This document shows positions 43,417-64,000 of a stretch of 64,000 nucleotides of DNA, one piece after another. Numbering within the stretch: the stretch's first letter is position 1; each line of letters opens with the position of its first letter. The notes under the pieces were generated by a model. The model did no database searches and was not told where the DNA came from. It saw nothing but the letters and a program-made list of their open reading frames with translations. Location of the stretch: positions 1-64,000 of the forward strand of contig JAUNHC010000019.1 in the NCBI GenBank assembly GCA_030524175.1, given 5' to 3'. The translations under genes were made by a program, and so were the position numbers. Source of the DNA: Eubacteriales bacterium. Lineage in GTDB: Bacteria > Bacillota > Clostridia > Lachnospirales > Lachnospiraceae.

Positions 43417-43457
43417 AATTTATAAATTTAGATGAAAGAAATGAAATATATTTCATT
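43417..43457. promoter_or_regulatory. Two perfect palindromes in the 43113-43660 gap
   Basis: AATTTATAAATT (43417-43428) and AATGAAATATATTTCATT (43440-43457) are perfect 12-bp and 18-bp palindromes. The first matches the AAATTTATAAR motif repeated in cluster D promoters. They lie about 90-130 bp upstream of the candidate promoter of the Gfo/Idh/MocA gene at 43661. The 548-bp gap otherwise holds the cluster C terminator and a 27-codon ORF (43246-43329) without support. Confidence 0.45.
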
Positions 43458-43546
43458 AATTATGAAAGACAATGGCAATAATAGTATAAAATGTCATAGA
43501 ATATATCGTATAAAACATAGAAAACAGGGAAAATAGACAAAAAACG

Positions 43547-43608
43547 TTGAAAGAAAATGAAAAGAATGCTACTATTATTCCATAAATAAAAGAGAAATTT
43601 TATAAAAT
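43547..43608 (+). promoter_or_regulatory. Candidate promoter and overlapping palindrome for the cluster D Gfo/LacI pair
   Basis: TTGAAA (43547-43552), a 17-bp spacer and TACTAT (43570-43575). A palindrome ATTTTATAAAAT (43597-43608) lies just after the expected start point and resembles the cluster D motif. Confidence 0.55.
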
Positions 43609-43660
43609 AAAAAGAATAGAAATATGTAAGCGTAAAAGACAGGAAAAGAAGGTAAGGACG

Positions 43661-44710
43661 ATGGTGAAAGTAGGAGTAATTGGATGCGGGAAAATTGCAC
43701 AGGTACGCCATATACCAGAGTATATGGATAATCCCTGTGCACAGCTTGTAGGACTTTACGATTTGAATAAGGAGAGGGCAAAAGAATTAGCCGAAAAATT
43801 TCATTGTAAAGCATATACGAGCGTTGAGGCCATGTTAGCAGATTCGAGTATAGATGCAGTTAGTATTTGTGTAGCCAACAGTGCTCATGCGGAGATTACA
43901 CTCCAGGCATTAGAGGCCGGAAAGCATGTACTTTGCGAAAAACCTATGGCAACTAATCTGGAAGACTGTGAGATGATGGTCCGTGCGGCCAAAGAAAATG
44001 GAAAAAAACTAATGGTGGGACAGAACCAGCGCTTTGCAAAAGCGCATATGGAAGCCAAAAGCCTGATCAAACAAGGAGCGATCGGAGAAATAATCACCTT
44101 TCGTACCATATTTGGCCACAGCGGGCCCGAGAACTGGAGTGTGAGTGCTGGTTCTCAGAACTGGTTTTTTGACAAAAAGAAAGCGGCCATGGGGGCTATG
44201 GCAGACTTGGGGGTACATAAGACGGATTTGATCCAATACCTTTTGGACGATGTTGTGGTGGAGACCACTGCAAAGATTACAACCCTGGACAAACGTGATT
44301 CATCCGGGAATCTTGTTGAGGTGGATGATAATGCGGTTTGTATTTATAAGATGAAAAAAGGCGCTATAGGGACTATGACCGCAAGCTGGACTTATTATGG
44401 GGAGGAAGATAATTCTACAGTGCTTTATGGTACAAAGGGAATAATGAAGATTTATGACAACCCTGATTATTGCATTGAACTGATACGCAAAGACGGAGGA
44501 AAGGTATTCTATGATATTGACCAGATTCAAACAAATCAAAACCAGACAAAATCAGGAATCGTCGATGATTTTATAGAGGCTATCCAAGAAGACGGGGAAC
44601 CGGCGGTGAATGGAATCAGTGTGCTTAGTGCTATGCGTGCAATATTCGGCAGTCTGCAGTCCAGTGAGACTGGCAGAACAGTGGTGGTCCATGAGGACAT
44701 GGTACTGTGA
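43661..44710 (+). CDS. Gfo/Idh/MocA-family oxidoreductase (cluster D, with LacI partner)
   Basis: 349 residues. NAD(P) motif GVIGCGKIAQ, EKP motif HVLCEKPMATN, then GQNQRFAKAHMEAKSLI and GAMADLGVHKTDLIQYLL in the substrate domain. A sugar, inositol or glycoside dehydrogenase by family. It is cotranscribed with the LacI regulator 33 bp downstream. No importer lies in this short operon, so it may work with the genes on either side. Confidence 0.9.
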   Translation: MVKVGVIGCGKIAQVRHIPEYMDNPCAQLVGLYDLNKERAKELAEKFHCKAYTSVEAMLADSSIDAVSICVANSAHAEITLQALEAGKHVLCEKPMATNLEDCEMMVRAAKENGKKLMVGQNQRFAKAHMEAKSLIKQGAIGEIITFRTIFGHSGPENWSVSAGSQNWFFDKKKAAMGAMADLGVHKTDLIQYLLDDVVVETTAKITTLDKRDSSGNLVEVDDNAVCIYKMKKGAIGTMTASWTYYGEEDNSTVLYGTKGIMKIYDNPDYCIELIRKDGGKVFYDIDQIQTNQNQTKSGIVDDFIEAIQEDGEPAVNGISVLSAMRAIFGSLQSSETGRTVVVHEDMVL

Positions 44711-44743
44711 AGCTGACACAAGAAATCTGGAAAGAGGAAGAGT

Positions 44744-45736
44744 ATGAACAATAAAGTCACTGCGGCACAAATTGCCGAAAAAGCGCAAGTATCTCCGGCA
44801 ACAGTATCCAGAGTTTTGAATCACAGAGAACTGGTAAAGGAATTTACAATTCAGAAAGTTGAAAAGGCAATGAAGGAACTTGGATATGTGCTGAGCACTT
44901 CTGAGACAATTTCGGTGAAAGATCAGCCTATCATTGTATTGAATATTCCGGGGATTGAAAATACATTTTATCAGGATGTGATACGTGGGGTACAGATTTC
45001 TGCAAAGGACCATGGGTGTTATCTGCTGATTCATGAATCTCCGTTGAAAAGGAGTACTATGGAAGAGTTCTGCAGTCTGCTGCTTCGGGTTAAGGCGTCA
45101 GGTACGATAATCCTTAATAAAATACCAGAAGAGTTCTTGCGTAAAATAAATAGCATTGTACCATTAGTGCAATGCTGTGAATATAATGAGTCAGCTGATT
45201 TCCCATATGTAAGTGTAAATGATATACAAGCTGCAGAAATGGCTACGGAGTATTTACTTTCCCGAGGCAGAAATAAAATAGCTATTATTAATGGCCCCAG
45301 TAGTTTCAAGTATTCGATGGAACGTCAAATGGGATTTCTGAATGCTATGGAAAATGCTCAGATCACTGTACCTAAACAGTGGATTGTGCAGCTTCCTGAA
45401 GTGAATTATGAAATGGCATATGCGGCTATTTGCCGTTTGCTAAATGCGGACGTAAGGCCAAACGCTTTTTTTACCATTTCAGATATATTTGCGTCTGCGG
45501 TTATCCGGGGAGCGAAACGATTTTCACTGCGGGTGCCTGAGGATATTATGGTTGTGGGATTTGATAATATAGAAATTTCTATGATGACTACACCATCTAT
45601 TACCACAGTGAATCAACCTAAGCTGCAAATGGGGTATACAGCCTGTGAGATTCTTATGGAACTAATGGAGAATCCTCAGGAGGAAGTGAAATCCATACTG
45701 CTGGATACAGAGCTTGTGATAAGGGAATCTGCATAA
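44744..45736 (+). CDS. LacI-family transcriptional regulator (cluster D, 44.7 kb)
   Basis: 330 residues. Helix-turn-helix TAAQIAEKAQVSPATVSRVL at residues 6-25; the hinge helix region is atypical (GYVLSTSETISVKD in place of the usual N..A..L). Sensor domain of the periplasmic-binding type (PIIVLNIPGIENTFYQDVIRG, VVGFDNIEISMMTTPSITTV). It may control its own operon and the surrounding genes through the AT-rich palindromes. GAAAGAGGAAGAGT upstream. Confidence 0.92.
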   Translation: MNNKVTAAQIAEKAQVSPATVSRVLNHRELVKEFTIQKVEKAMKELGYVLSTSETISVKDQPIIVLNIPGIENTFYQDVIRGVQISAKDHGCYLLIHESPLKRSTMEEFCSLLLRVKASGTIILNKIPEEFLRKINSIVPLVQCCEYNESADFPYVSVNDIQAAEMATEYLLSRGRNKIAIINGPSSFKYSMERQMGFLNAMENAQITVPKQWIVQLPEVNYEMAYAAICRLLNADVRPNAFFTISDIFASAVIRGAKRFSLRVPEDIMVVGFDNIEISMMTTPSITTVNQPKLQMGYTACEILMELMENPQEEVKSILLDTELVIRESA

Positions 45737-45776
45737 AGGGATGATGGCAGCAGTTTGGCGGGTATATTAAAAACAG

Positions 45777-45805
45777 AGGCAGAAGCTGTGAAAAAGCTTC
45801 TGCCT
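45777..45805 (-). terminator. Terminator between convergent LacI and pepD genes
   Basis: AGGCAGAAGCT (45777-45787) pairs perfectly with AGCTTCTGCCT (45795-45805). On the minus strand it is followed by CTGTTTTT, so it mainly ends the minus-strand operon; it may also serve the plus strand. Confidence 0.85.
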
Positions 45806-45825
45806 AACGTAATTAATGATGTATC

Positions 45826-47277
45826 TTATATCAGTTCTTTCAGAATTTCTTTAATATGATCCCATACCATCTGTACGGATGTCCAATCTAAGCGCTCCTT
45901 TGGTGTATGAACATCATAAGCCTTTGGCCCAAGTGAAATACACTCAAGTCCAGGTATCTTTGCACAGAACAGACCTAACTCAAGAGAAGAGTGGGAGATT
46001 TCCACATTAGGATCTTTTCCATACAGGTTTTTGAATGCTTTTTTAGCAGTTGCCAGAAGTTTGGAATCAGGATTATACGGCCATTCCGGACAATCAGCAA
46101 AAATGCTTACTTCTGCACCTAATACTTCTGCCAGATCATATACTTTCTGAAGGATGTTATACCTTCTTGAGGTGACAGCGCTTGGAATTGTCATCAGGAT
46201 AGAAACTACATTTTCTGCTGTATTGATCATTGCAAGGGTATTAGAGCTTTCTACAAGACCCTCGATTTCCAGGCTCATGCTCTGTACGCCGCATGGCAGT
46301 AAACGGATAGCTTTGCAGATCTTTCTGGTTTCATCATAGGAGAACATTTTCTCGGGCAGCTTAGCTGCAGTCAAAGAAACCTTAATATCCGGATCCGCAA
46401 TTTTATATTCATTCTTCAGCTCTGCACCAACTGCTTCTACAATAGCATTAACGTTTTCAAAATCAGCCTTTTGGATAACAATTACATTTGACATGTCACC
46501 TGGAATAACGTATCTGTTAATGCCGGCAGTCATGTCAGTGAAATGAATTTCATGCTGTAAGGAAATCTTATTTGCAATGCGGGCAAAAGTCTGGATTGCG
46601 TTGATTCGCTCTAAATGAATATCGAATTCAGAATGACCGCCGACACCGCCTGTTACAAATAAGGTGTACGCTGCCATGCTGTCATCTGGAGTCTCATATG
46701 TAACAGGGATTTTGAAATATGCGGAAATGTCACCTGCACATCCGGCAAAAATAGTATCAGGCTTGTGCCAGTTAAAGTCCATCAGTCTCTTTCCTGTAAC
46801 ATTTGCAGGGTTAAACTCGATGGCTCCCTTTTTCCCCACCTCTTCCTGAACAGAAATGCAGCACTCAATTGGCGGGTGCGGAAGCTGGGGATCATCGATG
46901 ATGCACATCATGAATGCAACTCCAACACCATTGTCTGCGCCGAGAGTAGTTCCCTTTGCTTTGATGTAATCGCCGTCAATATACAAATCTAAGCCTTCTT
47001 TAAGCATATCTTTTTCTACGCCTGGTTCCTTGTCCAGAACCATGTCCATATGACCATGGAAGAGTACTGGTTCTGCGTTTTCATAACCCTTTGAAGCGGG
47101 TACCTTGATCAGAAGATTGAAAAATGGATCTTGGAATACAGTACATCCTCTGTCTTCAGCAAATTTTTTCAGATGATTACTGATGGCCTCTTCATGATAA
47201 GAGCCTCTCGGAATATTGCTTATCTCTTCAAAGTAATGGAAAAATTCAGTTGGTTTTAATTCTGATAAAACGCCCAT
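45826..47277 (-). CDS. pepD: Aminoacyl-histidine dipeptidase (PepD, M20 family)
   Basis: 483 residues. Two-zinc M20 peptidase motifs: LFHGHMDMV (His76, Asp78), LGADNGVGV (Asp115), SVQEEVG (Glu145, Glu146) and the C-terminal LGPKAYDVHTPKERL. PepD/cytosol non-specific dipeptidases cleave Xaa-His and other dipeptides. Start 47277 has AAGGAGGACAAA. It is the last gene of the minus-strand operon of sugar-isomerase-like genes, an unusual companion; it may be a bystander or act on an amide-linked substrate. Confidence 0.92.
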   Translation of the reverse strand: MGVLSELKPTEFFHYFEEISNIPRGSYHEEAISNHLKKFAEDRGCTVFQDPFFNLLIKVPASKGYENAEPVLFHGHMDMVLDKEPGVEKDMLKEGLDLYIDGDYIKAKGTTLGADNGVGVAFMMCIIDDPQLPHPPIECCISVQEEVGKKGAIEFNPANVTGKRLMDFNWHKPDTIFAGCAGDISAYFKIPVTYETPDDSMAAYTLFVTGGVGGHSEFDIHLERINAIQTFARIANKISLQHEIHFTDMTAGINRYVIPGDMSNVIVIQKADFENVNAIVEAVGAELKNEYKIADPDIKVSLTAAKLPEKMFSYDETRKICKAIRLLPCGVQSMSLEIEGLVESSNTLAMINTAENVVSILMTIPSAVTSRRYNILQKVYDLAEVLGAEVSIFADCPEWPYNPDSKLLATAKKAFKNLYGKDPNVEISHSSLELGLFCAKIPGLECISLGPKAYDVHTPKERLDWTSVQMVWDHIKEILKELI

Positions 47278-47296
47278 TTTGTCCTCCTTGTTTAAT

Positions 47297-47326
47297 GAGG
47301 ACATCCCGTGATCATAGAATGTCCTC
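47297..47326 (-). other. Intercistronic stem-loop before pepD
   Basis: GAGGACAT (47297-47304) pairs with ATGTCCTC (47319-47326). On the minus strand no T-run follows, so it is more likely an mRNA stability or processing element than a terminator. Confidence 0.5.
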
Positions 47327-47348
47327 AAAATTTTTTTATTAACAATAA

Positions 47349-48200
47349 TTAGTAGATAACGCCTTCGTAATTTTTAAGATTTTCAAGAGAAATCTTTACA
47401 CTTTCCATTTCAGTGTGTTTTGTGTAATCCTGCTCAAGAATAATATAGCCTGCATCTGTATAGTTGATCGCAGTGTTGATGAAATCCTGAATCGGAAGCT
47501 GGCCAGTTCCGATTTCACAGAAATCATCTTTTGATACATAATCAAAGAAGTTGGAGTGCAGCAGGGTGTGTCCCCAGCCTAATTTCTTGTTGATATCAGC
47601 CTCGCCGGCAAATGTTTTAGGAAGATCCTTCTGATGGATGGCCATGACACGGTCGGCGAACTGTTTCATTACCTCTACAGGATCTTTTCCGCTTCTCTTC
47701 ATCCAGTAGGAGTCAACTTCAAATTTCATATTTTCAGGAGCTGTGTTTCCGAACAGTACATCCAGAAGCCAGCTTCCGTCATCAAGGTATGGAGCAAGTC
47801 CAGTATGCAGACAGTGTTGAATGCCATATTTTCTGCATTCCTCACCCAGCCGGTTGTATAATTCACAGTCGCGCAGAGCGCCGTCTTTTGTCATGGAATA
47901 TGGTTTGCTCATGAGGAATTTTGTTCCCAGCTCTGCATGATATTCTAAAACTTGATGCATGTTGTCAAGAGTAAGAGGATCAATATGGGCGCTGAAAATA
48001 TCCACATCATTGTCATCTGCTACTTTTTTCAGTTCAGCAGCACTTACATTAAATCCGCACCCGAAATCATTCTCTGCATTTAAGTTTGCAAGTTCCAGAT
48101 TTTTATAGCCGATTGCAGCAACATCCTTGATCGCCTGGATCGGATCTTTTGCCATTGCTTCTTTGATGGAATATAATTGTAGTCCGATTTTTAAAGCCAT
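47349..48200 (-). CDS. Xylose-isomerase-like TIM-barrel protein (cluster D, copy 1)
   Basis: 283 residues of the AP-endonuclease-2 fold: KIGLQLYSIKEAM start, GYKNLELANLNAEN, HCLHTGLAPY, FEVDSYWMKRSG, AIHQKDLP and YIILEQDYTK. Close in layout to the next gene upstream (48236), with the same starting motif (GLQLYSI/GLQVYTV) and the same ending (EQDYTKHTEMESV/EQDHSRLDEIDSI), so the two are diverged paralogues. Members of this fold isomerise keto sugars or cleave 3-keto-glycosides. AAAGGAGAACATAAAA upstream. Confidence 0.86.
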   Translation of the reverse strand: MALKIGLQLYSIKEAMAKDPIQAIKDVAAIGYKNLELANLNAENDFGCGFNVSAAELKKVADDNDVDIFSAHIDPLTLDNMHQVLEYHAELGTKFLMSKPYSMTKDGALRDCELYNRLGEECRKYGIQHCLHTGLAPYLDDGSWLLDVLFGNTAPENMKFEVDSYWMKRSGKDPVEVMKQFADRVMAIHQKDLPKTFAGEADINKKLGWGHTLLHSNFFDYVSKDDFCEIGTGQLPIQDFINTAINYTDAGYIILEQDYTKHTEMESVKISLENLKNYEGVIY

Positions 48201-48235
48201 TTTTATGTTCTCCTTTCAAATATACCGGTGATTTA

Positions 48236-49117
48236 TCAATCCCACTCAAGGCCGCGCATCTTCTTAAAGTTTGTCATGCTGACATTGATGCTGTCGATTT
48301 CATCCAGCCTAGAGTGATCCTGCTCAACAAGAATATATGGAATATTGTATTCGTTTCCTGCATCGATAACATCCTGGATTTTAATGATTCCGTTGCCAAC
48401 CTCTGTGAAGTGTGAAGGCTTGATCGTGCTGGCAAATGCAGCATGATCAACTAATTTTGTCCTGTCAACAACTTTCCAGCTGTTCAGCTCGTCTACCATA
48501 TCTAACGGGAAGTCCTTTTCATGAAGAACGCCGATTCGATTTCCATACTGATGAATCATTTCTACCGGATTGATCAATCCGCGGAATGCCCAGTATGCGT
48601 CCAGCTCAATTCCTATATATTCAGGATCTGTATTAGCCATCAGGTGATCGAAAATAGTCTCGCCTTCCATCAGCTGATACTCATTCCAGTGGTTATGATA
48701 AAGATAGCGAAGACCATTCTCCTTGCAGAGTTCACCTAATTTGTTGTATACTTCGCAACGTCTTTTCAGCGTATCCAGATCCGGGAAAAATTCCTGTGGA
48801 TTGGAGATGAATTTAGCGCCGAGACCTACATAGAAATCAACGATTTTCTTGAAATAATCCAAATCTGAATAAATATCATGTTCTGCCTGCTGCTGGGTGG
48901 TCATAACATGAGCGCCTACAACAGTGATACCCAGATCTTTGACGATTTTCTGCATTTCTTCTAAAGAATAACCGAACCCGATTCCAGTATCTTTTTCTGC
49001 ATTGTGGTTTGCAAACTCGATGTATTTGTATCCTGAATTTACAACCTGTTCCAGTGTTTTTCTTGGATCCTCTTTAAGGTGCTTTCTTACTGTGTAAACC
49101 TGAAGTCCTACTCTCAT
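48236..49117 (-). CDS. Xylose-isomerase-like TIM-barrel protein (cluster D, copy 2)
   Basis: 293 residues. RVGLQVYTVRKHL, YLYHNHWNEYQL, GIELDAYWAFRGLI, GVLHEKDFPLDMV and YILVEQDHSRLDEI carry the His/Glu/Asp metal pattern of the fold. Paralogue of copy 1; the YHNHWNE and AYWA motifs are typical of sugar isomerase/epimerase proteins next to Gfo/Idh/MocA genes. AAAGGAGAAAGAAA upstream. Function inferred: isomerisation or elimination on an oxidised sugar. Confidence 0.87.
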   Translation of the reverse strand: MRVGLQVYTVRKHLKEDPRKTLEQVVNSGYKYIEFANHNAEKDTGIGFGYSLEEMQKIVKDLGITVVGAHVMTTQQQAEHDIYSDLDYFKKIVDFYVGLGAKFISNPQEFFPDLDTLKRRCEVYNKLGELCKENGLRYLYHNHWNEYQLMEGETIFDHLMANTDPEYIGIELDAYWAFRGLINPVEMIHQYGNRIGVLHEKDFPLDMVDELNSWKVVDRTKLVDHAAFASTIKPSHFTEVGNGIIKIQDVIDAGNEYNIPYILVEQDHSRLDEIDSINVSMTNFKKMRGLEWD

Positions 49118-49144
49118 TTTTTCTTTCTCCTTTATTATGATTTT

Positions 49145-50068
49145 TTAATCTACATATTGATTTAAATATTTTTTTGCTAATCTGATAGAGGAAAGAATAT
49201 CCTCCTCAGATCCTTCGAATGCTTTATCCTCAACTTCGATCACTGCATATCCGTTGTAGTGGATATCGTTTAGTGCGGAAACAAATGCGCTCCAGTCCAC
49301 ATCACCCAAGCCGGGTATCTTTGGGGACATGTATTCAAGCGGATAAGCAAGAATACCGCAATCAGCCAGTTTATCAGCGTAAAGCTTGATATCTTTAAAG
49401 TGTACGTGGAAAATACGGTCTTTAAATTCACTGATTGTTTTTATGTAATCCAGTCTCTGCCATACATAGTGGCTTGGATCAAAGTTGAGTCCAAAGTTCT
49501 TGGAAGGGATAATGCTAAACAGCTGTCTGAAGATTGCAGGAGTACACATTAAATTCTGTCCTCCCGGCCACTGATCTTTGCCGAACAGCATCGGACAGTT
49601 TTCAATAGCAACTTTTACATTGGACGCCTCGGCAAATGCGATGATATCCGGCCATATCTGGCTGAACAGGCGGATATTCTCGTCCACATTTTTTGTCTGA
49701 TCGCGTCCGATGAATGTGCTTACCATTCCAATTCCCAGTTTGGAAGAAGCTTTGATCACGGATTTTAAATGTGTAATATTGGAATTTCGTTTTTCTAAAT
49801 CCGGATCAAGAGTATTGGGATAGAAGGCAAGAGAAGAAATCGTTAAATTATATTTCTTCGCACAATCAAGGATCTGCTGTGTATAATCATCATCCGCGCA
49901 GATGCGTTCGCAGTCGATATGACAAACACCAGCGTAGCGTCTTTCTGCTTTGCCTCCGGGCCAGCAAGCTACTTCCAGACATTTGAAACCCATCTCCGAT
50001 GCGGTCTTGGCAACCTTTTCAAAGCTGTAGGTATCAAGGATGGCTGTTAACAAGCCTAATTTCATCAT
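49145..50068 (-). CDS. Xylose-isomerase-like TIM-barrel protein (cluster D, copy 3)
   Basis: About 307 residues and more distant from copies 1 and 2. KLGLLTAILDTYSFEKVAKTA, VAIENCPMLFGKDQWPGG, NFDPSHYVWQRLDYI, VHFKDIKLYADKL and YAVIEVEDKAFEGS fit the IolE/sugar-epimerase group. Two adjacent ATG codons (50068 and 50065) follow GGGTGAT; the first is used here. It is the second gene of the minus-strand operon, 86 bp after the HTH-less LacI-like gene. Confidence 0.86.
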   Translation of the reverse strand: MMKLGLLTAILDTYSFEKVAKTASEMGFKCLEVACWPGGKAERRYAGVCHIDCERICADDDYTQQILDCAKKYNLTISSLAFYPNTLDPDLEKRNSNITHLKSVIKASSKLGIGMVSTFIGRDQTKNVDENIRLFSQIWPDIIAFAEASNVKVAIENCPMLFGKDQWPGGQNLMCTPAIFRQLFSIIPSKNFGLNFDPSHYVWQRLDYIKTISEFKDRIFHVHFKDIKLYADKLADCGILAYPLEYMSPKIPGLGDVDWSAFVSALNDIHYNGYAVIEVEDKAFEGSEEDILSSIRLAKKYLNQYVD

Positions 50069-50106
50069 TTTTGTATCACCCACTTTCTTTAATATTAACG
50101 ATTCTG

Positions 50107-50119
50107 CCGGCCTGGCCGG
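50107..50119 (-). other. GC-rich hairpin after the HTH-less LacI-like gene
   Basis: CCGGC-CTG-GCCGG, a compact 5-bp stem flanked by GATTC/GATTCC, in the 86-bp gap between two minus-strand genes. It includes CTGGCCGGATTC, the same 12-mer that forms half of the stem at 6406-6433. Confidence 0.4.
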
Positions 50120-50154
50120 ATTCCATAAAATTTATACATCGTAAATTCAACCAG

Positions 50155-51033
50155 TCAGTTAATATCAGAAACACTGTTTCTTTCAACCAGTGTTGTAAAA
50201 AGGACTGTGTGAGAAGTACATTTTGCTGTGTTCCGAAGGTGTTTCATAAGCAGCTCAACTGCTTCGGTACCCAGATTATCTTTGTATATATGGATTGTTG
50301 TAAGGCCAGGCTCGATCATACTGCTGATCGGCAGATTGTCAAATCCGACGAATGAAAAATCTTCAGGAACGATGTGTCCTGTATCTTTGCATGCCTTGAT
50401 CGCTCCGATTGCAACGAGGTCGCAATCCGAAAGGAATGCATCAGGCAATTCTTGAGATTTACATAGAAGATTTTTCATACCTTCATAAGATTCCTGTTCG
50501 GGATATCCAATAGGAAAGAAGAATTCTTCATCACTATTAAAAAGTCCGTATTTTTTTAGAATCTTTTTTGCATAATGCTGTCGTTCTTTAAAACAATTGT
50601 AATCCAGGCTGCTTGTCAGATACCCGATTTTTTTATGACCTGACTGAATTAAATAATCAATGGCAAGTTTCATTCCCTGGTGATTGTTTTCTTGTACAGA
50701 GCTGACTGACAGATCTATAAAAGAATTTTCCAGAAGAACGAAAGGGATGTCCAAATTGTTGAAATAAATCAGTTGTTCATATGATACCTCTGGAGCAAAC
50801 AGGATAAATCCGGCACAATTATTATTGGAAAGACGGTCAAGTTCCCTTTCCAGGTTATCATTGGAGACAGTCATGAAACATAGATAGTATCCATGTGAAT
50901 GAACTGCTTTTTCGATTCCTTCTATTATAAAAGAAAAGGAATTAGTCCCATCAGAGTTTACAAGCTTACCGGAATCTACATATGTGATAAAGAAGATATT
51001 TTTCTTATCATTTGAACTTTCCAGGCTATCCAC
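50155..51033 (-). CDS. LacI-like sensor protein without a DNA-binding domain
   Basis: 292 residues. The whole protein is the LacI-type periplasmic-binding effector domain (NIFFITYVDSGK near the start, GFILFAPEVSYEQ, HKKIGYLTSSLDY, FVGFDNLPISSMIEPGLTTI near the end), but the usual 50-60 residue helix-turn-helix is absent. An in-frame stop lies three codons before the GTG start, and the bases upstream are AT-rich promoter sequence, not a frameshifted N-terminus. No signal peptide. The first half aligns with the LacI regulator at 63466 (NSF..., GIEK, GY...F, C.G...FA.E, PFVLL.N.F). It could be a ligand-responsive partner or antagonist of that regulator. First gene of the minus-strand operon. Confidence 0.8.
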   Translation of the reverse strand: MDSLESSNDKKNIFFITYVDSGKLVNSDGTNSFSFIIEGIEKAVHSHGYYLCFMTVSNDNLERELDRLSNNNCAGFILFAPEVSYEQLIYFNNLDIPFVLLENSFIDLSVSSVQENNHQGMKLAIDYLIQSGHKKIGYLTSSLDYNCFKERQHYAKKILKKYGLFNSDEEFFFPIGYPEQESYEGMKNLLCKSQELPDAFLSDCDLVAIGAIKACKDTGHIVPEDFSFVGFDNLPISSMIEPGLTTIHIYKDNLGTEAVELLMKHLRNTAKCTSHTVLFTTLVERNSVSDIN

Positions 51034-51052
51034 CTCACTTTATAAAAGCATT

Positions 51053-51109
51053 AAATTTATAAATACATAATAATATATAATACCTAGATTGTCAAATGAA
51101 ATTTATAAA
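51053..51109 (-). promoter_or_regulatory. Minus-strand promoter of the HTH-less LacI/TIM-barrel operon with motif copies
   Basis: On the minus strand, TTGACA (complement of 51090-51095), a 17-bp spacer and TATTAT (complement of 51067-51072). AAATTTATAAAT (51053-51064) covers the expected start point and AAATTTATAAA (51099-51109) lies just upstream of the -35. The leader is only about 25 bases. Confidence 0.75.
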
Positions 51110-51218
51110 AAATAGAGAAAAAATTTACGGTAATTGTAAAATTACACAATTTGCACGGAGTAAAATAGTACATAATGTACAAAATAACGGAGAAATGAAG
51201 AAAAACCAAAAAATACCA

Positions 51219-51299
51219 TTGACAAATACGTAAAAAATTTATAAAATATTGTCATAAACAAGCGCGAGTGGCAAAATAAATTTATAAGATTTATAAACG
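51219..51299 (+). promoter_or_regulatory. Plus-strand promoter of the cluster D importer operon with operator-like repeats
   Basis: TTGACA (51219-51224), a 17-bp spacer and TAAAAT (51242-51247). AAATTTATAAAA (51235-51246) overlaps the -10, and AAATTTATAAGAT plus GATTTATAAAC (51278-51298) follow the expected start point. Two back-to-back promoters with at least five copies of one AT-rich motif fill the 335-bp gap 51034-51368. Confidence 0.75.
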
Positions 51300-51368
51300 C
51301 CGAACCTAATTAACTGAATCGGAGTTCAGTAGTTAGTAAATATCTTTATAAGAAAAGGAGAAATCAAA

Positions 51369-52397: not shown

Positions 52398-52414
52398 TAT
52401 TTGATAACAATGTG

Positions 52415-52448
52415 GGATGTCTCTTCAGCAAAAGCCGGAGAGACATCC
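52415..52448 (+). terminator. Intercistronic stem-loop after the cluster D binding-protein gene
   Basis: GGATGTCTCT (52415-52424) pairs perfectly with AGAGACATCC (52439-52448) over a 14-base loop, with no T-run. Probably stabilises the binding-protein message or attenuates downstream genes. Confidence 0.65.
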
Positions 52449-52499
52449 ATAAAACTTCCTTATTCATTCTAATATACTGCACAACAGAAAGGGAAAAGA

Positions 52500-54014: not shown

Positions 54015-54054
54015 TGTTTAATAATAAATTTGAAATGAAAATGGAGGAAGAATA

Positions 54055-55017: not shown

Positions 55018-55044
55018 GGTTGATTTGCAGAAAGAGGAGCGATT

Positions 55045-57012: not shown

Positions 57013-57044
57013 TTTATATGGATAAAAAGAGGAGGATTTTTGAA

Positions 57045-58178
57045 ATGAAAGACATTCGGACAGCCGTAATCGGAACAGGTTTAATTGCAAATTCAGCACA
57101 TCTTGCTGCGATTCAGAGAATTGGAAGTGGATTTGATGTGGTAGCGTGTTATGACATGCGGGTAAGTGCAGCGAAAGAGACAGCAGAGCGTTTCAATATT
57201 CCAAATGTTTATGAAGATGTTGATAAAATGCTGGAAGAGATGAAACCAGAGCTTGTGATCGTGGCAACCTCCAATGCATCACATAAAGAAATGTCATTAA
57301 AGGCATTAAAAAGAGGTGCCAATGTTGTGTGTGAGAAGCCGGTTGCTATGAAATATGCAGATGCAGTAGAGCTGTTTGACGAGGCAGAGAAGCGGGGCCT
57401 TCATTTCTTTCCGGCTCAGACAGAGAGATTCAGACAGGAGCGTCTGGCTGCAAGAAAGCTTGTGAAAACAGGTGAACTTGGAGAGGTATATTTTGCAGAG
57501 TTCGAGAGTGTGAGAAGAAGAGGAATTCCTCAATGGGGATTCTTTCATATGAAAGAGTACAATGTAGGCGGACCATTCGCTGATCTTGGTGTTCATGAGA
57601 TTGACCATATGCTTTATACATTAGGAAATCCCAAGCCCATCACTGTAAGCGGAAGCACATGGTCAAAGATTGGGAATTCAGGAAATGAGCTGGAGATTTC
57701 CGCTGAACAAAGCGGTGCATTAGGCGGTATTGAGATTACACCTCGTCCATATGACTGGAAAGAGTTCAGCGTTGAGGATATGGCAACAGGGATTATCCGC
57801 TTAGAGGGGGATCTGACTATTAATTTCAAGTGTTCCTGGGCATTGAATGTTCCGGACCGCTTTACAAGAACTTATGCAGGTACAAAGGCGGGGATGAGAT
57901 ACGGAAATGATCATCCAATGACTATTTACAGTGATGTGGCAGGATGGCAGTCAGATAAGGTTCCATATGTATATGGAGATGCTGATTATCCTTCAGATCT
58001 TCCGTTCCCGGGACATGTTGGATTGCTTAAAAACGTATATGGTGTTCTGAGAAATGGTGAGGAGCCCATCGTTAAGAAAGAAGAGACTTTGAATGTTACA
58101 ACAGTAATCGAAGCTTTCTATAAATCAGCAGAGTTACATAAAGAAATCAACTGCCTAAAGCTCAGAGGCGAAGAGTAA
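57045..58178 (+). CDS. Gfo/Idh/MocA-family oxidoreductase (cluster D, importer operon)
   Basis: 377 residues. NAD(P) motif AVIGTGLIANSAHLAAI, EKP motif VVCEKPVAMK, then PAQTERFRQERLAARKLV and GGPFADLGVHEIDHMLYTLG. Similar in type to the glycoside/sugar dehydrogenases found in C-glycoside-cleaving gut clusters. ATG 57045 has GAGGAGGATTTTTG. Lying between the flavoenzyme and etfB, it probably oxidises the sugar part of the imported compound. Confidence 0.9.
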   Translation: MKDIRTAVIGTGLIANSAHLAAIQRIGSGFDVVACYDMRVSAAKETAERFNIPNVYEDVDKMLEEMKPELVIVATSNASHKEMSLKALKRGANVVCEKPVAMKYADAVELFDEAEKRGLHFFPAQTERFRQERLAARKLVKTGELGEVYFAEFESVRRRGIPQWGFFHMKEYNVGGPFADLGVHEIDHMLYTLGNPKPITVSGSTWSKIGNSGNELEISAEQSGALGGIEITPRPYDWKEFSVEDMATGIIRLEGDLTINFKCSWALNVPDRFTRTYAGTKAGMRYGNDHPMTIYSDVAGWQSDKVPYVYGDADYPSDLPFPGHVGLLKNVYGVLRNGEEPIVKKEETLNVTTVIEAFYKSAELHKEINCLKLRGEE

Positions 58179-58226
58179 TCATTGTAGTTTATCAATGGGA
58201 CTATTTTTTGAATAAGAGGGGTTTGA

Positions 58227-59075
58227 ATGAATATCATTGTATGTATAAAACAAGTACCTAATACAAAGGAAGTGCGCATTAATACGGAGACGAATAATAT
58301 TATTCGGGAAGGCGTGCCTAGTATTCTTAATCCGGCAGACGCTAATGCGATAGAAGCAGCCCTCTCTATTCGCGAAAAAAAAGGTGGTACTGTATGTGCG
58401 GTCTCTATGGGACCGCAGCAGTCCGCTGATGTACTGCAAGAAGCACTTGATATGGGGGCAGACAGGGGAATCCTTTTATCAGACCGGATGGTGGCAGGAT
58501 CCGATACATTGGCCACCGGTTATGCACTCTCCGCTATGATAAAAACGCTGAATGCAGATCTTGTCTTATGTGGAGCTGAGGCTATAGATGGATGTACAGG
58601 ACAAGTTGGGCCAATTATTGCCGAGAATCTTGGATGGCCCCAGTTTACCTATGTTAATTCCGTAGAAATTACAAATGGATGTCTTAAAATAAAAAGAGAC
58701 ATGAGAGATACTTTTGAATTGTATGAATGCAAACTGCCGGCTGTTGTTTGTGTATTGAAGGGAATCAATATTCCTAGAAAGAGTAAGGATTCAGATAAAA
58801 GACCGGAAATTATTTCAGTAAAAGAAATAGATGCGGAAGAGGAGTACCTTGGAATGAAAGGTTCACCTACAAGAGTTTCCAAAATTGTTTTTTCGGGAAA
58901 AAGTATGTCCAGCTTTGTATCTGTAGATGGGAGTCTGCCAGTCAGATCACGCATTCGTATTTTAATGAATGGCGGGATGTCTCCTAAGAAAATCAGTTTT
59001 GTAAGAGGAGAAGCGAAAGAGCTTGCAGACAGAATTCTTGAGGATGAAGTTCTGAGAGGGCAGATTGTAAAATAG
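58227..59075 (+). CDS. etfB: Electron transfer flavoprotein subunit beta
   Basis: 282 residues. MNIIVCIKQVPNT start, NPADANAIEAAL, GADRGILLSD and GAEAIDGCTGQVGPIIAENLGWPQ are EtfB hallmarks; the nucleotide-binding region is present. It forms a heterodimer with the next gene product. GAGGGGTTTGA upstream, 48 bp after the Gfo/Idh/MocA gene. Confidence 0.94.
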   Translation: MNIIVCIKQVPNTKEVRINTETNNIIREGVPSILNPADANAIEAALSIREKKGGTVCAVSMGPQQSADVLQEALDMGADRGILLSDRMVAGSDTLATGYALSAMIKTLNADLVLCGAEAIDGCTGQVGPIIAENLGWPQFTYVNSVEITNGCLKIKRDMRDTFELYECKLPAVVCVLKGINIPRKSKDSDKRPEIISVKEIDAEEEYLGMKGSPTRVSKIVFSGKSMSSFVSVDGSLPVRSRIRILMNGGMSPKKISFVRGEAKELADRILEDEVLRGQIVK

Positions 59076-59088
59076 GAGAGGTGATAAG

Positions 59089-60300
59089 ATGATTCATATT
59101 GATAGCGAAAGCTGTATTGGATGCGGAGTGTGCGCTGAGACATGTTTTTCGGGTGCAATATCAATACAGGACTCACGCGCTGTAGTGAATGATGCGTGTA
59201 TCCTTTGCGGCAGCTGTGAAGACGCCTGTCCTGTTTCTGCAATTACTTTTGAAAGAGACAGTGAAGCGGCAGATAAGAATGATCTGTCCGCGTATTCAGG
59301 TGTATGGGTTGTCATGGAAAATGATAATCACACATCCATGCCTAAAAAGGTGTGTTACGAACTTCTGAGTGAAGGGAGAAAGCTGGCAGATCGTCTGGGA
59401 GAACGTTTGTGTGCAGTGTATCTTTGTATTGAGATTTCGGAGCAGACAGTGGAGGATCTTCGGGCAATCGGCTGTGATATACTGATTCTGGCGGAAAACA
59501 GCGAATTTAAATGGTATAATACAGATGTTTTTTCTAAAATCATAACAGGTTTTATAGAAAAATATAAACCATCTATCGTTCTTTACCCGGGAACAGAAAA
59601 TGGAAGAGATTTGGCACCCAGAATATCAGCAAGACTTAAGGTGGGGCTTACTGCGGATTGTACAGCATTGGAAATTAATGAAAAAAAAGAGCTGGTACAA
59701 GTCAGGCCAACTTATGGCGGAAATATTGTAGCGTCTATTCTTACACCGGATCACCGGCCGCAGATGGCTTCGGTCAGACCTAATATTTTTGCAGTTGTCC
59801 GGACAGACACGCACAGAAAAATGGAGATTCTAAGAGAGCAGGTAACGATCACTTCGGAGTTATTGAGAGTAAAAAGAGCAGGCACACAAGAAAAGAAGAG
59901 TATTTATAAGGATGTTGAAGAGGCCAGGGTGGTTCTTGTGGGAGGATTCGGCGCCGGAGAAAAAGGCTTTCAGCTTATTAATGAACTGGCAGTTAAACTT
60001 GACGCTGCAGTGGGGGCTACCAGAAAGGCTGTTGACGAAGGCTGGGCGCCTTTTGAGATTCAGATCGGACAGACTGGAAAAATAATAGCTCCCGATCTGT
60101 ATATCTGTTTCGGAGTTTCCGGAGCACTGCAGCATACCATCGGAGTCCGCGGTGCGAAAAAAATGATAGCAGTGAACAATGATCCTACGGCACCTGTTTT
60201 TAATTGCTGTGATATGGCTGTGCTGGGAGATTGTGTTGAGGTTCTTGAAAATATGATCAAGCAGGTTGAAGAAAAAGGGAACGAAGTTTTTTCTATATAG
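59089..60300 (+). CDS. etfA: Electron transfer flavoprotein subunit alpha fused to a 2[4Fe-4S] ferredoxin domain
   Basis: 403 residues. Residues 1-55 form a two-cluster ferredoxin: Cys9, 12, 15, 19 and Cys37, 40, 43, 47. The rest is EtfA with the FAD-binding end FGVSGALQHTIGVRGAKKMI and VNNDPTAPVF. This fusion is known from anaerobes, for example the caffeyl-CoA reductase-Etf complex of Acetobacterium, where it takes part in flavin-based electron bifurcation. Here no acyl-CoA dehydrogenase gene is near; the only candidate partner is the OYE-type flavoenzyme. Starts 13 bp after etfB with AGGAGAGGTGATAAG. Confidence 0.95.
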   Translation: MIHIDSESCIGCGVCAETCFSGAISIQDSRAVVNDACILCGSCEDACPVSAITFERDSEAADKNDLSAYSGVWVVMENDNHTSMPKKVCYELLSEGRKLADRLGERLCAVYLCIEISEQTVEDLRAIGCDILILAENSEFKWYNTDVFSKIITGFIEKYKPSIVLYPGTENGRDLAPRISARLKVGLTADCTALEINEKKELVQVRPTYGGNIVASILTPDHRPQMASVRPNIFAVVRTDTHRKMEILREQVTITSELLRVKRAGTQEKKSIYKDVEEARVVLVGGFGAGEKGFQLINELAVKLDAAVGATRKAVDEGWAPFEIQIGQTGKIIAPDLYICFGVSGALQHTIGVRGAKKMIAVNNDPTAPVFNCCDMAVLGDCVEVLENMIKQVEEKGNEVFSI

Positions 60301-60310
60301 TAAATGACAA

Positions 60311-60353
60311 AAACTTTCCAAGGCCGGTTGACGACTTTGGGAAGCTTTTTTTT
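60311..60353 (+). terminator. Internal terminator between etfA and the cyclase gene
   Basis: CTTTCCAAG (60314-60322) pairs with CTTTGGGAAG (60335-60344), with a bulge and a G-T pair, and runs into eight T residues (60346-60353). Only 15 bases separate the T-run from the next start codon, so the last three genes are probably expressed at a lower level by read-through. Confidence 0.8.
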
Positions 60354-60368
60354 AAAGGAGATATTGTT

Positions 60369-61379
60369 TTGGAGAAGATAATAGACGAAAAAATAATGAA
60401 AGACACAGCCCGGCGTGTATGTAACTGGGGAAAATGGGGCAAAGAGGATGAAATCGGGACTTTGAATTATGTAAATGAAGAATGTATTATCCGGGCAGCA
60501 GCTCTAGTAAAAAAAGGCATGGTCTTTCAGCTTGGAATGAATCTGGATACAACAGGCCCACAAAATGGTGCATCAAATGAACGTTTTAATCCGGTTCATA
60601 CAATGTTGTGGTCTGGAGTGGATGCAGTAAGTGGAAGAGAGCTGTATCACCATGGACCGCCAAAGGATCATGATCCGGAATTGCCCTGGTATAGTACTAA
60701 TTTTTCTGATGATCTTATATCCATGCCGCTGCAGGCTGCAACACATTGGGATGCTTTGGCACATATTTTTTATCGGGACCTGGATACGGGAGAAATATTT
60801 CTGTGGAATGGAAGAAAAGCTGAAATGGTGGACTCCGCCGGGTGTTGGGCTTCCGGTATCGATAAATACGGAACAAAGATGGCCGGACGGGGAGTATTGC
60901 TGGATATAGCAAGATTTAAAAATGTGGATTACATGCTTCCCGGTGAGGGGATTACGGCAGAAGATTTAGAATGCTGTGCCAGGGCGGAAGGCGTGGAAAT
61001 ACAACGGGGAGATTTTTTGCTTATCAGAACGGGTGATGCAGACCGCAGGATCAGGGAAGGAAAGTGGGGAGAGTATGCAGATGTCAGACCAGGAGTGGAG
61101 TTCGAGACTATATGTTATTTTCATGATAAAGAGGTGGCAGCTATTGCCGCGGATACTTATGGTGTAGAGGTAAGCCCGAATCGGTCGCTGGTATTTGATA
61201 ATCCTTTTCACTGGCTTGCCCTGCCCATGTGCGGTATGCCTCTTGGTGAAAATTTCAGACTGGATGAACTGGCGAAAGATTGTGAAAAAGACGGTGTGTA
61301 TGAGTTCATGTTTGTATCTCCCCCGTTGCTTGTGACAAATGGAACAGCATCTCCGCTGAATCCATATGTAATAAAATAA
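60369..61379 (+). CDS. Cyclase-family metal hydrolase (kynurenine-formamidase-like fold)
   Basis: 336 residues. The metal motif THWDALAH (Thr125-His132; usually HxGTHxDxPxH) and HDKEVAAIAADTYGVEV, GDFLLIRTGD are cyclase-superfamily features. Members hydrolyse amides, lactones or cyclic diketones (formylkynurenine, isatin, polyketide rings). Starts with TTG at 60369, placed by AAAGGAGAT at 60354-60362. With an amidohydrolase next, it may open or hydrolyse the aglycone ring or a lactone. Exact substrate unknown. Confidence 0.88.
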   Translation: MEKIIDEKIMKDTARRVCNWGKWGKEDEIGTLNYVNEECIIRAAALVKKGMVFQLGMNLDTTGPQNGASNERFNPVHTMLWSGVDAVSGRELYHHGPPKDHDPELPWYSTNFSDDLISMPLQAATHWDALAHIFYRDLDTGEIFLWNGRKAEMVDSAGCWASGIDKYGTKMAGRGVLLDIARFKNVDYMLPGEGITAEDLECCARAEGVEIQRGDFLLIRTGDADRRIREGKWGEYADVRPGVEFETICYFHDKEVAAIAADTYGVEVSPNRSLVFDNPFHWLALPMCGMPLGENFRLDELAKDCEKDGVYEFMFVSPPLLVTNGTASPLNPYVIK

Positions 61380-61392
61380 TGGAGGAGATTAC

Positions 61393-62145
61393 ATGTATTA
61401 TATTGATGCACATGCGCATATTGGGGATTGCAGAGTTTTTGATATGAACGTAACGGAAAAGCAGTTTTTACATGAAATGGAAAAAAGCGGTGTGGATGCA
61501 GCAATTTTACAGCCTTTTCCTGGAGCTTTTGACTATCTGGCGGTTCATGATCAGATTTACAGAATGTCACGGGAAATGCCTGGAAAAATTTATGGACTTG
61601 TGAGCATTAATCCCCATAAGGATAGGAATATTCTTGAAAAGGAAGTTCGTCATTATGTAGAAGATTGTGGATTTGTAGGGATTAAGCTGCATACTCAGGG
61701 ACATGCAGTGCATCCGGGATCGAGGGATGCACATGCATTATATGAAATAGCTGCAGGATTAAAGATACCGGTTAACGTACATACAGGACTGGGAGTGCCG
61801 TTTGCCATGCCTTCTCTTTTGCTGCCAATTGGGAAACAGTATCCGGAAATAACATTTGTTGTAGCTCATTCAGGTACCTTGGTATATTCAGCAGAAGCGG
61901 TTATCTTAGCAAATGAGTGCGAGAATGTCTATTTAGACACGACAATGTGTGTGATTGAGGATCTTTTGATGTTAAAACGTGAGTTAGGTGCGGAAAAACT
62001 GATTTTTGCATCAGATTCTTTAAAGAGTATGACGCTGGAACAGATGAAATTCAGGGCGGCAGAATTTTCTGAAGAGGATTTAAAGAAGGTATTTTACAGG
62101 AATGCAGCAAAGGTATTTGGTTTAGATGTCTATAAAGATTTATGA
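61393..62145 (+). CDS. Amidohydrolase-2 family hydrolase/decarboxylase
   Basis: 250 residues. Metal-binding pattern IDAHAHIG at the N-terminus, KLHTQGHAVHPG, VNVHTG, VVAHSG and FASDSLK, typical of the amidohydrolase-2 (ACMSD/lactonase-like) group. Such enzymes hydrolyse lactones or decarboxylate aromatic acids. ATGGAGGAGATTAC upstream, 13 bp after the cyclase gene; the MFS gene follows directly. It is likely a step in breakdown of the same compound. Confidence 0.88.
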   Translation: MYYIDAHAHIGDCRVFDMNVTEKQFLHEMEKSGVDAAILQPFPGAFDYLAVHDQIYRMSREMPGKIYGLVSINPHKDRNILEKEVRHYVEDCGFVGIKLHTQGHAVHPGSRDAHALYEIAAGLKIPVNVHTGLGVPFAMPSLLLPIGKQYPEITFVVAHSGTLVYSAEAVILANECENVYLDTTMCVIEDLLMLKRELGAEKLIFASDSLKSMTLEQMKFRAAEFSEEDLKKVFYRNAAKVFGLDVYKDL

Positions 62146-62168
62146 GAAAAGGGGTGAGAGAAAGCGTT

Positions 62169-63380
62169 ATGAAAACAGATAGGAGACAACTGAATATTCT
62201 TTATTTTGTATCTCAGTGCGGGTATTGGTTTGCCAGTTGTACAATATTCAGTTTTTCAACCGTTTTTTTATTACATCGAGAACTTTCTGTTTCCTGCATT
62301 GGAGTGGTAATAGCATTAGGCAGCATATTGGGGACGGTTGCACAGCCGTTTTTTGCGGGTGCGGTAGACCAGGGATATATCCGGTTACATACACTGATGA
62401 AGGTTCTTGTGTATCTGCTGGCGGTTTGTATGGCATTATTGTTTTTTGTTAAAGGCCCGCGGGTGCTTATAATAGCAATATTTCTTATTGCTGATATCCT
62501 GCTGTGGGTAATTATGTCTCAGGAAAACAGTCTTAGTATTTATTATGTGAATAGAGGGATCTTTTTAGATTTTGGCATTGCCAGAGCAGGAGGGTCAGCG
62601 GCATTTGCGGTAGCATCTGTTATTCTGGGGTGGCTGGCACAACGTTTTTCAGCAAGTGCAGTGATGATAGGAGGGGGAGCCGGCTTGGCAGTGCTGCTGG
62701 TGTCTATATATTATCTGCCTGTACTGGATGAAACAAAACAGGAATGTGCAGATGAGAAGAGACAAAAGAGAACAGCGTCCGGCGGATTTCTGGCATTTAT
62801 AAAAAAATACAAAAAGTTTACGGCAGTTTTGATCGGTGTAGCTATGCTTTTTAATTTTCATAATATGAATGTTGCGTATTCCATTAATATTATCGAGAGG
62901 TTTGGAGGAAATGCCTCACATCTCGGTCTGGGATTTTCGCTTGCAGCTTTTGCAGAAATCCCTATGCTGTTACTTTTTTTAAGAGTTAATAAAAGAATTA
63001 GCAGTAACAGACTTTTGATCGTGGCAGGTGGGTTTTTTATAGTCAAATCATTTTGCTTTGTTTTTTGCGGCAGTATACGCCTGTTTTATCTGATCCAGAT
63101 TTTTAATATGGGGTCCAATGCATTGATTTTGCCAGCCTGTGTCAGATATGCAGATGAAATGATGGAGCCTGGAGATAAGTATAAAGGGCAGGCATTTGTA
63201 GTGGGGGCGGATGCGCTGGGCAATGTGTTAGGAACCTTGCTGGGAGGATTTATTGTTGATTACGCAGGTGTGAATGCAATGATCAGATTCGGAGTAGTGT
63301 TTGCGGTTATCGGATTTCTTCTTTTGATATTCAATGGGAAAAATCCGGAAGAAAAACAGATTGTATTAATTTCTGATTAA
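62169..63380 (+). CDS. MFS transporter (12 helices)
   Basis: 403 residues, about 12 membrane helices, with a central cytoplasmic loop rich in Lys/Glu near residues 195-220. Resembles the LacY/nucleoside-symporter-like MFS_1 group. Start chosen at ATG 62169 because GGGGTGAGAG lies 9 bases upstream; an alternative ATG at 62142 overlaps the previous stop as ATGA and would add nine residues. As a second transporter in the operon, after the ABC importer, it may import a companion substrate or export a product such as the released aglycone. Confidence 0.88.
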   Translation: MKTDRRQLNILYFVSQCGYWFASCTIFSFSTVFLLHRELSVSCIGVVIALGSILGTVAQPFFAGAVDQGYIRLHTLMKVLVYLLAVCMALLFFVKGPRVLIIAIFLIADILLWVIMSQENSLSIYYVNRGIFLDFGIARAGGSAAFAVASVILGWLAQRFSASAVMIGGGAGLAVLLVSIYYLPVLDETKQECADEKRQKRTASGGFLAFIKKYKKFTAVLIGVAMLFNFHNMNVAYSINIIERFGGNASHLGLGFSLAAFAEIPMLLLFLRVNKRISSNRLLIVAGGFFIVKSFCFVFCGSIRLFYLIQIFNMGSNALILPACVRYADEMMEPGDKYKGQAFVVGADALGNVLGTLLGGFIVDYAGVNAMIRFGVVFAVIGFLLLIFNGKNPEEKQIVLISD

Positions 63381-63405
63381 TTATTTACTAAAAATGCTTT
63401 TTTCC

Positions 63406-63431
63406 TTGACAGAAATAAAAATTTATAAAAT
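63406..63431 (+). promoter_or_regulatory. Promoter-like TTGACA with AAATTTATAAAAT motif before the last LacI gene
   Basis: TTGACA (63406-63411) followed by AAATTTATAAAAT (about 63419-63431), much as at 51219-51247. The -10 box is not clear-cut because the region is nearly all A/T (AATAAT at 17 bp). CTTTATAAGA further down (63438-63447) is another partial motif copy. Confidence 0.6.
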
Positions 63432-63465
63432 AATATTCTTTATAAGAAAGAGAGGATAAGAGCAT

Positions 63466-64000
63466 ATGTCATTAAAAGCAAAAGAGGTAGCTGAAATATT
63501 AGGTATTTCACAGGCTACTTTGTCGCTGGTGGTAAATCAGAAGCCGGGGATCAGTGATGCGACCAGGCAGAAGGTACTGTCAGACTTAAAGGAAAAAGGC
63601 TTTGAGTATCTGCTTGAAAAAAAAGGAAAAAAGAGAACGGTTGATCAGAATGCCCAAAACGGCAATAACAGCCAGATGATGACGGAACAGCATCAGGATA
63701 ATACCATCGCTTTCGTGATTTATCAGATAAAGGGTGAACTTTTGGGATTCAATTCTTTTTTTCCGATGATCATGAATGGAATAGAAAAAACTGCCCGGCA
63801 GGAAGGATACAACATCAGTTTTATTAACATCCAGAAAGAACAGATAGATGAAGGAATTGATTACATTAAAGCCTCCAGATGCTGTGGATATGTCATTTTT
63901 GCTACAGAGATGCAGGAAGAAGATATTTTGCCGTTTAAAGAAATCGGCCTGCCGTTTGTTCTCCTTGATAATAATTTTAATGATGATATCAACATTGTAA
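63466..64000 (+). CDS. LacI-family transcriptional regulator (3' end beyond the window)
   Basis: Open from ATG 63466 to the window end (178 codons). Helix-turn-helix LKAKEVAEILGISQATLSLV at residues 3-22, then GISDATRQKVLSDLKEKGF, a charged linker (about 52-80) longer than usual, and the start of the sensor domain (TIAFVIYQIKGELLGFNSFF, MNGIEKTARQEGY, CGYVIFATEMQEEDI, PFVLLDNNF). The linker replaces the normal hinge helix. It is the full-length relative of the HTH-less protein at 50155 and probably controls cluster D. AAGAGAGGATAAGAG upstream. Confidence 0.9.
   Translation, partial: MSLKAKEVAEILGISQATLSLVVNQKPGISDATRQKVLSDLKEKGFEYLLEKKGKKRTVDQNAQNGNNSQMMTEQHQDNTIAFVIYQIKGELLGFNSFFPMIMNGIEKTARQEGYNISFINIQKEQIDEGIDYIKASRCCGYVIFATEMQEEDILPFKEIGLPFVLLDNNFNDDINIV

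Follow-up and report, generated by a model that had tools for sequence, protein, structure and literature searches.

The locus described here raises the question of which substrate is used, and with which electron carrier, by a flavoenzyme of the old yellow enzyme (OYE) family that is encoded in a sugar gene cluster together with an electron-transferring flavoprotein (Etf). The cluster occupies positions 43417-64000 of a 64,000-nucleotide stretch of DNA (the window; positions 1-64,000 of the forward strand of contig JAUNHC010000019.1, assembly GCA_030524175.1) from a gut bacterium of the Eubacteriales (Lachnospiraceae). Besides the OYE it encodes EtfB, an EtfA with an N-terminal ferredoxin domain (FdEtfA), a ribose-type importer, two Gfo/Idh/MocA dehydrogenases (Gfo1 and Gfo2) and three TIM-barrel proteins (TIM1-3). 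Our best explanation, which is tentative, is that an OYE-EtfB-FdEtfA module has joined a keto-sugar catabolic operon. An earlier interpretation of the nucleotide sequence alone (hereafter the sequence-only reading) had instead assigned to OYE and Etf a part in the reduction and hydrolysis of the aglycone of an imported plant-type glycoside.

A recurrent OYE-EtfB-FdEtfA module

Relatives of the window OYE were collected by scanning 84,980 species, each represented by a single genome, with two short peptide patterns, taken from this OYE and from a homologue previously seen beside EtfB; the scan is a sample and not a census. It yielded at least 591 pattern matches, 461 of which encode a relative, and the best 80 loci were kept. 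EtfB and FdEtfA adjoin the OYE gene in exactly eight of these best 80 of 461 (L042-L049), with OYEs that are 41-45% identical to that of the window, and a six-frame tblastn recheck (E <= 1e-5) returned the same eight loci. Neither EtfB nor FdEtfA was found in the 72 remaining loci, whose OYEs share at most 37% identity with that of the window. Among the 80 loci are eight, one of them Etf-positive, that are shorter than 9 kb, and here the absence of Etf genes means absence from these short stretches.

The records of the eight relatives belong to Dorea, Scatomonas, other Lachnospiraceae, Christensenella and a metagenome-assembled genome of an actinomycete. The number of independent lineages is lower than eight because L047 and L048 are closely related. 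OYE and EtfB are directly adjacent in all eight, whereas Gfo2 sits between them in the window. The link between keto-sugar genes and the Etf-linked OYE that the sequence-only reading had pointed out recurs as well: every one of the eight loci contains a TIM-barrel match and, within ~10 kb of the module, a ribose-type importer.

In a tree of 78 OYEs (from the window and the 80 loci, minus L066, L092 and L103, in which no OYE frame was called), which also underlie the motif counts given below, the window OYE and the eight Etf-linked OYEs form one clade with a support of 99 in the Shimodaira-Hasegawa-like approximate likelihood ratio test. A profile of this clade gave four matches above 1000 bits in 397 sampled genomes of the family, the next best reaching 451 bits. 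Since the three high matches besides the window's own genome lie on the same contigs as L042, L044 and L046, they add no independent evidence. The OYEs that rank next (L165-L167) carry the usual HGY motif, without any Etf match. OYE, EtfB and FdEtfA together form a discrete module, newly recognised here, and the conserved unit is narrower than the full cluster, consisting of this module, a sugar importer and TIM/Gfo-type enzymes.

Two further genes were observed near the module in individual relatives. A gene for an MttB-family methyltransferase is present in two of the eight loci (L044, 16396-17808; L049, 7341-8777), and in Christensenella (L043) the module is followed by a GH4 glycosidase gene (14994-16343). 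GH4 enzymes use NAD-dependent 3-keto chemistry.

Probable electron exchange of the Etf-linked OYE

All nine Etf-linked OYEs carry the segment E[LI]KxAHDGLLR, in which K171, H174, D175, G176 and R179 are invariant; its Lys column holds His in 63 of the 69 other OYEs. The column of the catalytic Tyr is Gly in all nine, compared to Tyr in 67 of 69 others, and the NAD(P)H-binding GxGxxG motif of the second Rossmann fold is absent from all nine and present in 59 of 69 others by the pattern used. The four [4Fe-4S] cysteines (CCCC) are kept throughout the nine. Gene linkage and the lost NAD motif are most simply explained by a probable exchange of electrons between Etf-linked OYEs and EtfAB in place of NADH. 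Two observations weigh against this. Ten other OYEs are without GxGxxG; three of these (L070, L099, L113) are near-miss variants and seven are sister sequences without Etf genes on their DNA, although three of the seven loci are shorter than 9 kb. As these sisters have lost the motif too, the missing NAD site is a feature that extends beyond the Etf-linked OYEs. Furthermore, L050, the nearest relative without Etf, shows the same K..HDG change. The predicted model of the window OYE has a moderate mean pLDDT (predicted local distance difference test) of 76.4, with several loops below 50.

The five best solved relatives of EtfB (5ol2, CarD, LctB, 4kpu and 7koe; E 4e-45 to 4e-55) are all bifurcating or confurcating Etfs, and the human Etf (E 2e-23) and the partner of trimethylamine dehydrogenase (TMADH; E 8.5e-17) rank far behind them. 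The best solved relative of FdEtfA is CarE, with the ferredoxin domain covered by the match, and LctC comes second. The Etf pair is thus of the bifurcating type in likeness, and a bifurcating function is possible. This grading reflects a mixed motif record and the precedent of the Clostridium propionicum Etfs. A passage of PMC9232219 lists as bifurcating EtfB motifs DGDTAQVGP (at the bifurcating FAD, b-FAD), RxFxG and SPT, and as an EtfA feature an Arg (LctC R205) that contacts N5 of the b-FAD. In the module, the first motif reads DGCTGQVGP in seven of nine EtfB sequences including that of the window, DGSTGQVGP in L042 and DSGTGHIGS in L049. RxFxG is strictly present in two of nine, and the alignment shows SPT in seven.

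It is quite possible that the Etf does not bifurcate and is a plain carrier from NADH to the OYE, like the Etf of the C. propionicum acryloyl-CoA reductase, which would leave the other parts of the best explanation unaffected. The change of the third residue of the b-FAD motif in all nine sequences argues for such a role, as do matches of the window pair to the AcrA and AcrB models, which stay below the cut-offs (157 of 475 and 256.5 of 600 bits). The C. propionicum Etfs are likewise described in a passage of PMC9232219 as highly related to bifurcating ones, yet non-bifurcating. On the other hand, eight of nine EtfB sequences retain seven of the nine motif residues, all nine FdEtfA proteins keep both ferredoxin cluster motifs, and seven of them, including that of the window, have the Arg near the b-FAD (L046 is cut by the contig end and L049 was not matched by the pattern).

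A rather doubtful alternative is that the OYE is a TMADH-like dehydrogenase that oxidises a sugar amine, a betaine-like or a hydroxy compound, with EtfAB confurcating these electrons with ferredoxin to NADH. TMADH also lacks the glycine motif at the aligned position. Its FMN is covalently bound by a Cys, and Tyr169 serves as the base. Neither residue is kept in the window OYE, where Cys30 aligns with V31 and Tyr169 with K171; moreover, the window Etf pair is distant from the Etf of TMADH, as the E-value given above indicates, and MttB genes accompany the module in just two of eight loci.

Returning to electron transfer in the keto-sugar explanation, a new bifurcating complex, in which an OYE with a K/H/D/R site would reduce a sugar enone (e.g. 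2-hydroxy-3-keto-glycal) with NADH while reducing ferredoxin, appears unlikely. If true, it would represent an energy-conserving use of keto-sugar intermediates as electron sinks in anaerobes. The recurring Etf-linked OYE beside keto-sugar genes would also place a bifurcating-type Etf together with an enzyme of the OYE family, a combination not encountered in the literature searched (subscription journals lay outside this scope); an excerpt of PMC13174914 mentions bifurcation merely as inspiration.

Predicted keto-sugar chemistry and the probable substrate of the module

The keto-sugar chemistry proposed by the sequence-only reading is supported by the predicted relationships of two enzymes. 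The best solved relative of Gfo2 is DgpA, first of 65 distinct sequences matched, and the nearest characterised structural relative of TIM3 is, narrowly, the 2-hydroxy-3-keto-glucal hydratase AtHYD (8ro4), with which the sequence profile agrees. Close homologues of Gfo1 and TIM3 also occur in several of the relatives. Gfo1 homologues (56-58% identity) were detected in four of the eight OYE-Etf genomes, each ~11 kb or less from the module, and TIM3 homologues (57-65%) in five, within ~11 kb except for one at the end of a separate contig. Altogether, six of the eight genomes contain a close homologue of Gfo1 or TIM3.

We propose that a sugar, glycoside or cyclitol-like compound would be taken up by the ribose-type importer and that, judging from their family, Gfo1 and/or Gfo2 would use NAD to convert a ring hydroxyl group into a ketone. 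The TIM-barrel proteins may eliminate a leaving group and/or hydrate an enone of the 2-hydroxy-3-keto-glycal type, as the likeness of TIM3 to AtHYD suggests. The OYE would act on a sugar-derived enone or ketone, which is suggested by its constant company of sugar genes, and would trade electrons with EtfAB in place of NADH, in agreement with linkage and motif loss. As to direction and carrier, EtfB would be the site of NADH use and the EtfA domain that of ferredoxin use, in a scheme that, on mixed motif evidence, would probably be bifurcating, so that enone reduction would also give reduced ferredoxin. The recurrence beside sugar genes may point to a reaction of sugar intermediates that has not been described.

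Further observations weigh against this explanation. The genomes of L043 and L049 contain no close homologue of Gfo1 or TIM3, and the Gfo1-TIM3 pair is commoner than the module and found in many genomes without OYE-Etf. A TIM3 homologue (54-75%) is adjacent to Gfo1 in eight of nine further loci examined; the two genes are ~4.4 kb apart on opposite strands in the window. None of these nine loci contains EtfB or a full-length match to OYE or EtfA. The genome of the window has another Gfo1-TIM3 pair (59% and 54%; L186, G000:C71, 7005-8994), again without OYE-Etf.

The aglycone model of the sequence-only reading, in which Gfo and TIM proteins remove the sugar of an imported plant glycoside to leave an aglycone for reduction and ring opening by OYE-Etf, cyclase and amidohydrolase, is unlikely. 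It is in line with the DgpA-like Gfo2 and with the position of the OYE, Etf, cyclase, amidohydrolase and MFS genes in one plausible operon with small gaps. However, cyclase, amidohydrolase and MFS carrier are without a match in all eight OYE-Etf relatives' loci, whereas importer and TIM genes do match. A close relative of Gfo2 is also missing from these loci, which gave only generic Gfo matches (25-29%). A sugar-derived intermediate is for these reasons more likely than an aglycone as the substrate of the flavoenzyme. Conversely, no OYE, EtfB or cyclase match was found in the four examined regions with the five closest homologues of Gfo2 in the family; one of these regions (L128) showed one weak ferredoxin-domain match to FdEtfA.

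C-glycoside cleavage by the cluster, which the sequence-only reading had considered, is weakened and not supported, since the DgpB/CGDB beta subunit (PF19906) had no match in this genome (G000, 90.7% complete, so that the missing part could hold it). The same search of five genomes returned two matches in G046, and no CGDB match was obtained in 14 named control genomes. The absence of neighbouring DgpBC is not odd in itself, because DgpA lies apart from DgpBC in Catenibacillus as well, according to a passage of PMC11170127.

Cyclase, amidohydrolase and MFS carrier, which are without a match in the eight related loci, may serve in the present organism to free or convert some specific aglycone or lactone. 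They do not account for the conserved flavoenzyme. The cyclase is rare: at E <= 1e-3 it was detected in seven of 299 genomes of the family, with the present genome counted and the top match by E-value outside it being 32% identical, and at 1e-20 in four of 398 genomes of the phylum, again with the present one counted. Degradation of a phloroglucinol-type aglycone via the cyclase was set aside in view of this rarity and its lack of a match in the OYE-Etf relatives. An inositol pathway was likewise discarded, as TIM1-3 compared with IolE and the relatives' genes compared with IolO and IolM all scored far under the cut-offs; in an excerpt of the inositol review PMC12482443, no mention of flavin, electron transfer or Etf was found.

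The sequence-only reading had also asked whether the parts of the cluster occur independently. This was the case for Gfo1-TIM3, which occurs without Etf in nine of nine loci, and not for OYE-Etf, which was never seen without importer and TIM genes (0 of 8). A chance neighbourhood of unrelated importer, TIM/Gfo and Etf-OYE parts would fit the former result and is very improbable in view of the latter and of the close Gfo1 or TIM3 homologues in six of eight genomes.

Gene inventory, regulation and comparison with known systems

All genes named by the sequence-only reading were recovered in place by Pfam and family matches (Table 1). It did not mention the M20 dipeptidase, the three LacI-type regulators or the likeness of Gfo2 to DgpA. 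The intergenic gaps from the substrate-binding protein to the MFS gene (51369-63380, plus strand) are only -4 to 102 bp, which makes a single operon plausible. Facing it on the minus strand are the genes for the three TIM proteins, the M20 dipeptidase and LacI2; Gfo1 and LacI1 lie farther upstream on the plus strand. A gene for a GH120-type protein (41007-43112) ends ~550 bp upstream of Gfo1 and may be part of this cluster or of the preceding one. The sole Rfam match in the window at the gathering threshold is an FMN riboswitch (1139-1278, 101 bits).

Table 1 Features of the cluster with coordinates in the window, strand and basis of assignment.
Feature	Position	Strand	Basis
Gfo1, Gfo/Idh/MocA dehydrogenase	43661-44710	+	Pfam
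LacI1 regulator	44744-45736	+	Pfam
PepD-like M20 dipeptidase, adjoins TIM genes	45826-47328	-	TIGR01893, 456.2 bits (cut-off 343.75)
TIM1, xylose-isomerase-like barrel	47349-48200	-	PF01261, 30.6 bits, slightly below cut-off 31.1; PDB 3l23, 3obe, 8tcs
TIM2, xylose-isomerase-like barrel	48236-49117	-	PF01261
TIM3, barrel like 2-hydroxy-3-keto-glucal hydratase	49145-50083	-	AP_endonuc_2-like
LacI2, effector domain only	50155-51033	-	Pfam
Divergent promoter region, 7 TTTATAA/TTATAAA sites	51034-51368	.	Motif count
Ribose-type substrate-binding protein	51369-52397	+	Pfam PF13407
RbsA-type ATPase	52500-54014	+	Pfam
RbsC-type permease	54055-55017	+	Pfam
OYE/4Fe-4S/FAD enzyme, Etf-linked clade	55045-57012	+	Oxidored_FMN and Pyr_redox_2
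Gfo2, DgpA-like Gfo/Idh/MocA dehydrogenase, between OYE and EtfB	57018-58178	+	PDB 7xr9 (DgpA), E 6.7e-52
EtfB, bifurcating type, DGCTGQVGP replacing DGDTAQVGP	58227-59075	+	Alignment
FdEtfA, EtfA with N-terminal 2x[4Fe-4S] ferredoxin domain	59089-60300	+	CarE (6fah_A), E 4.6e-90; two CxxCxxCxxxC
PF04199 cyclase-family hydrolase	60369-61379	+	Pfam
PF04909 amidohydrolase	61393-62145	+	Pfam
MFS carrier	62142-63380	+	Pfam
LacI3 regulator, continues beyond window end	63466-64000	+	Pfam

The repeated motif that had been noted in the divergent promoter region is real: the sites listed in Table 1 give 12 overlapping matches compared to 0.8 expected, a number reached in none of 2000 first-order simulations. 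Two sites of the TTTATAA type precede Gfo1 (four matches, equalled in 23 of 2000 simulations) and two precede LacI3. Since no such cluster was seen in the eight related OYE-Etf loci, any regulatory role would be confined to this genome. One of the three LacI-type regulators, LacI2, is without a DNA-binding domain, and visual inspection of the three upstream frames on the minus strand revealed no helix-turn-helix. Homologues of LacI1 (56%) are located beside the module in L047 and L048.

The window OYE has the same three-domain architecture as mycofactocin OYE 2 (TIGR03997; 569 bits, curated cut-off 793), BaiCD (369 bits, cut-off 825) and bilirubin reductase (341 bits, cut-off 750), and scores below the cut-off in each case. 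It shares the [4Fe-4S] cysteines of the three-domain OYE reductases (DCR, BaiCD, BilR) and is without their catalytic Tyr and NAD(P)H glycine motif. TMADH with its ETF (1o94) is likewise an OYE-family enzyme with an Etf and a non-canonical NAD site. On the side of the Etf, the closest systems are the caffeyl-CoA reductase-Etf complex CarCDE and the lactate dehydrogenase-Etf complex LctBCD: CarE and LctC are the two best solved relatives of FdEtfA, and among those of EtfB CarD comes second and LctB third. Unlike in these complexes, the partner of the window Etf is an OYE/Fe-S/FAD enzyme and not an acyl-CoA or lactate dehydrogenase, and the b-FAD motif is altered. The C-glycoside deglycosylation systems DgpABC and DfgABCDE share with the cluster the DgpA-like Gfo2, and their CGDB beta subunit is unmatched in the window genome.

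Gfo and TIM-barrel genes are also the components of the non-hydrolytic keto-glycoside pathway, which comprises a Gfo oxidase, a 3-keto-glycoside lyase and AtHYD. As described in an excerpt of PMC13273386, this pathway proceeds in four steps (oxidation at C3, elimination, hydration and reduction), is redox-neutral overall and contains no OYE-Etf step, whereas the window cluster encodes OYE and Etf. The recurring Etf-linked OYE would mean that some anaerobes move electrons into or out of keto-sugar intermediates, perhaps conserving energy via ferredoxin.

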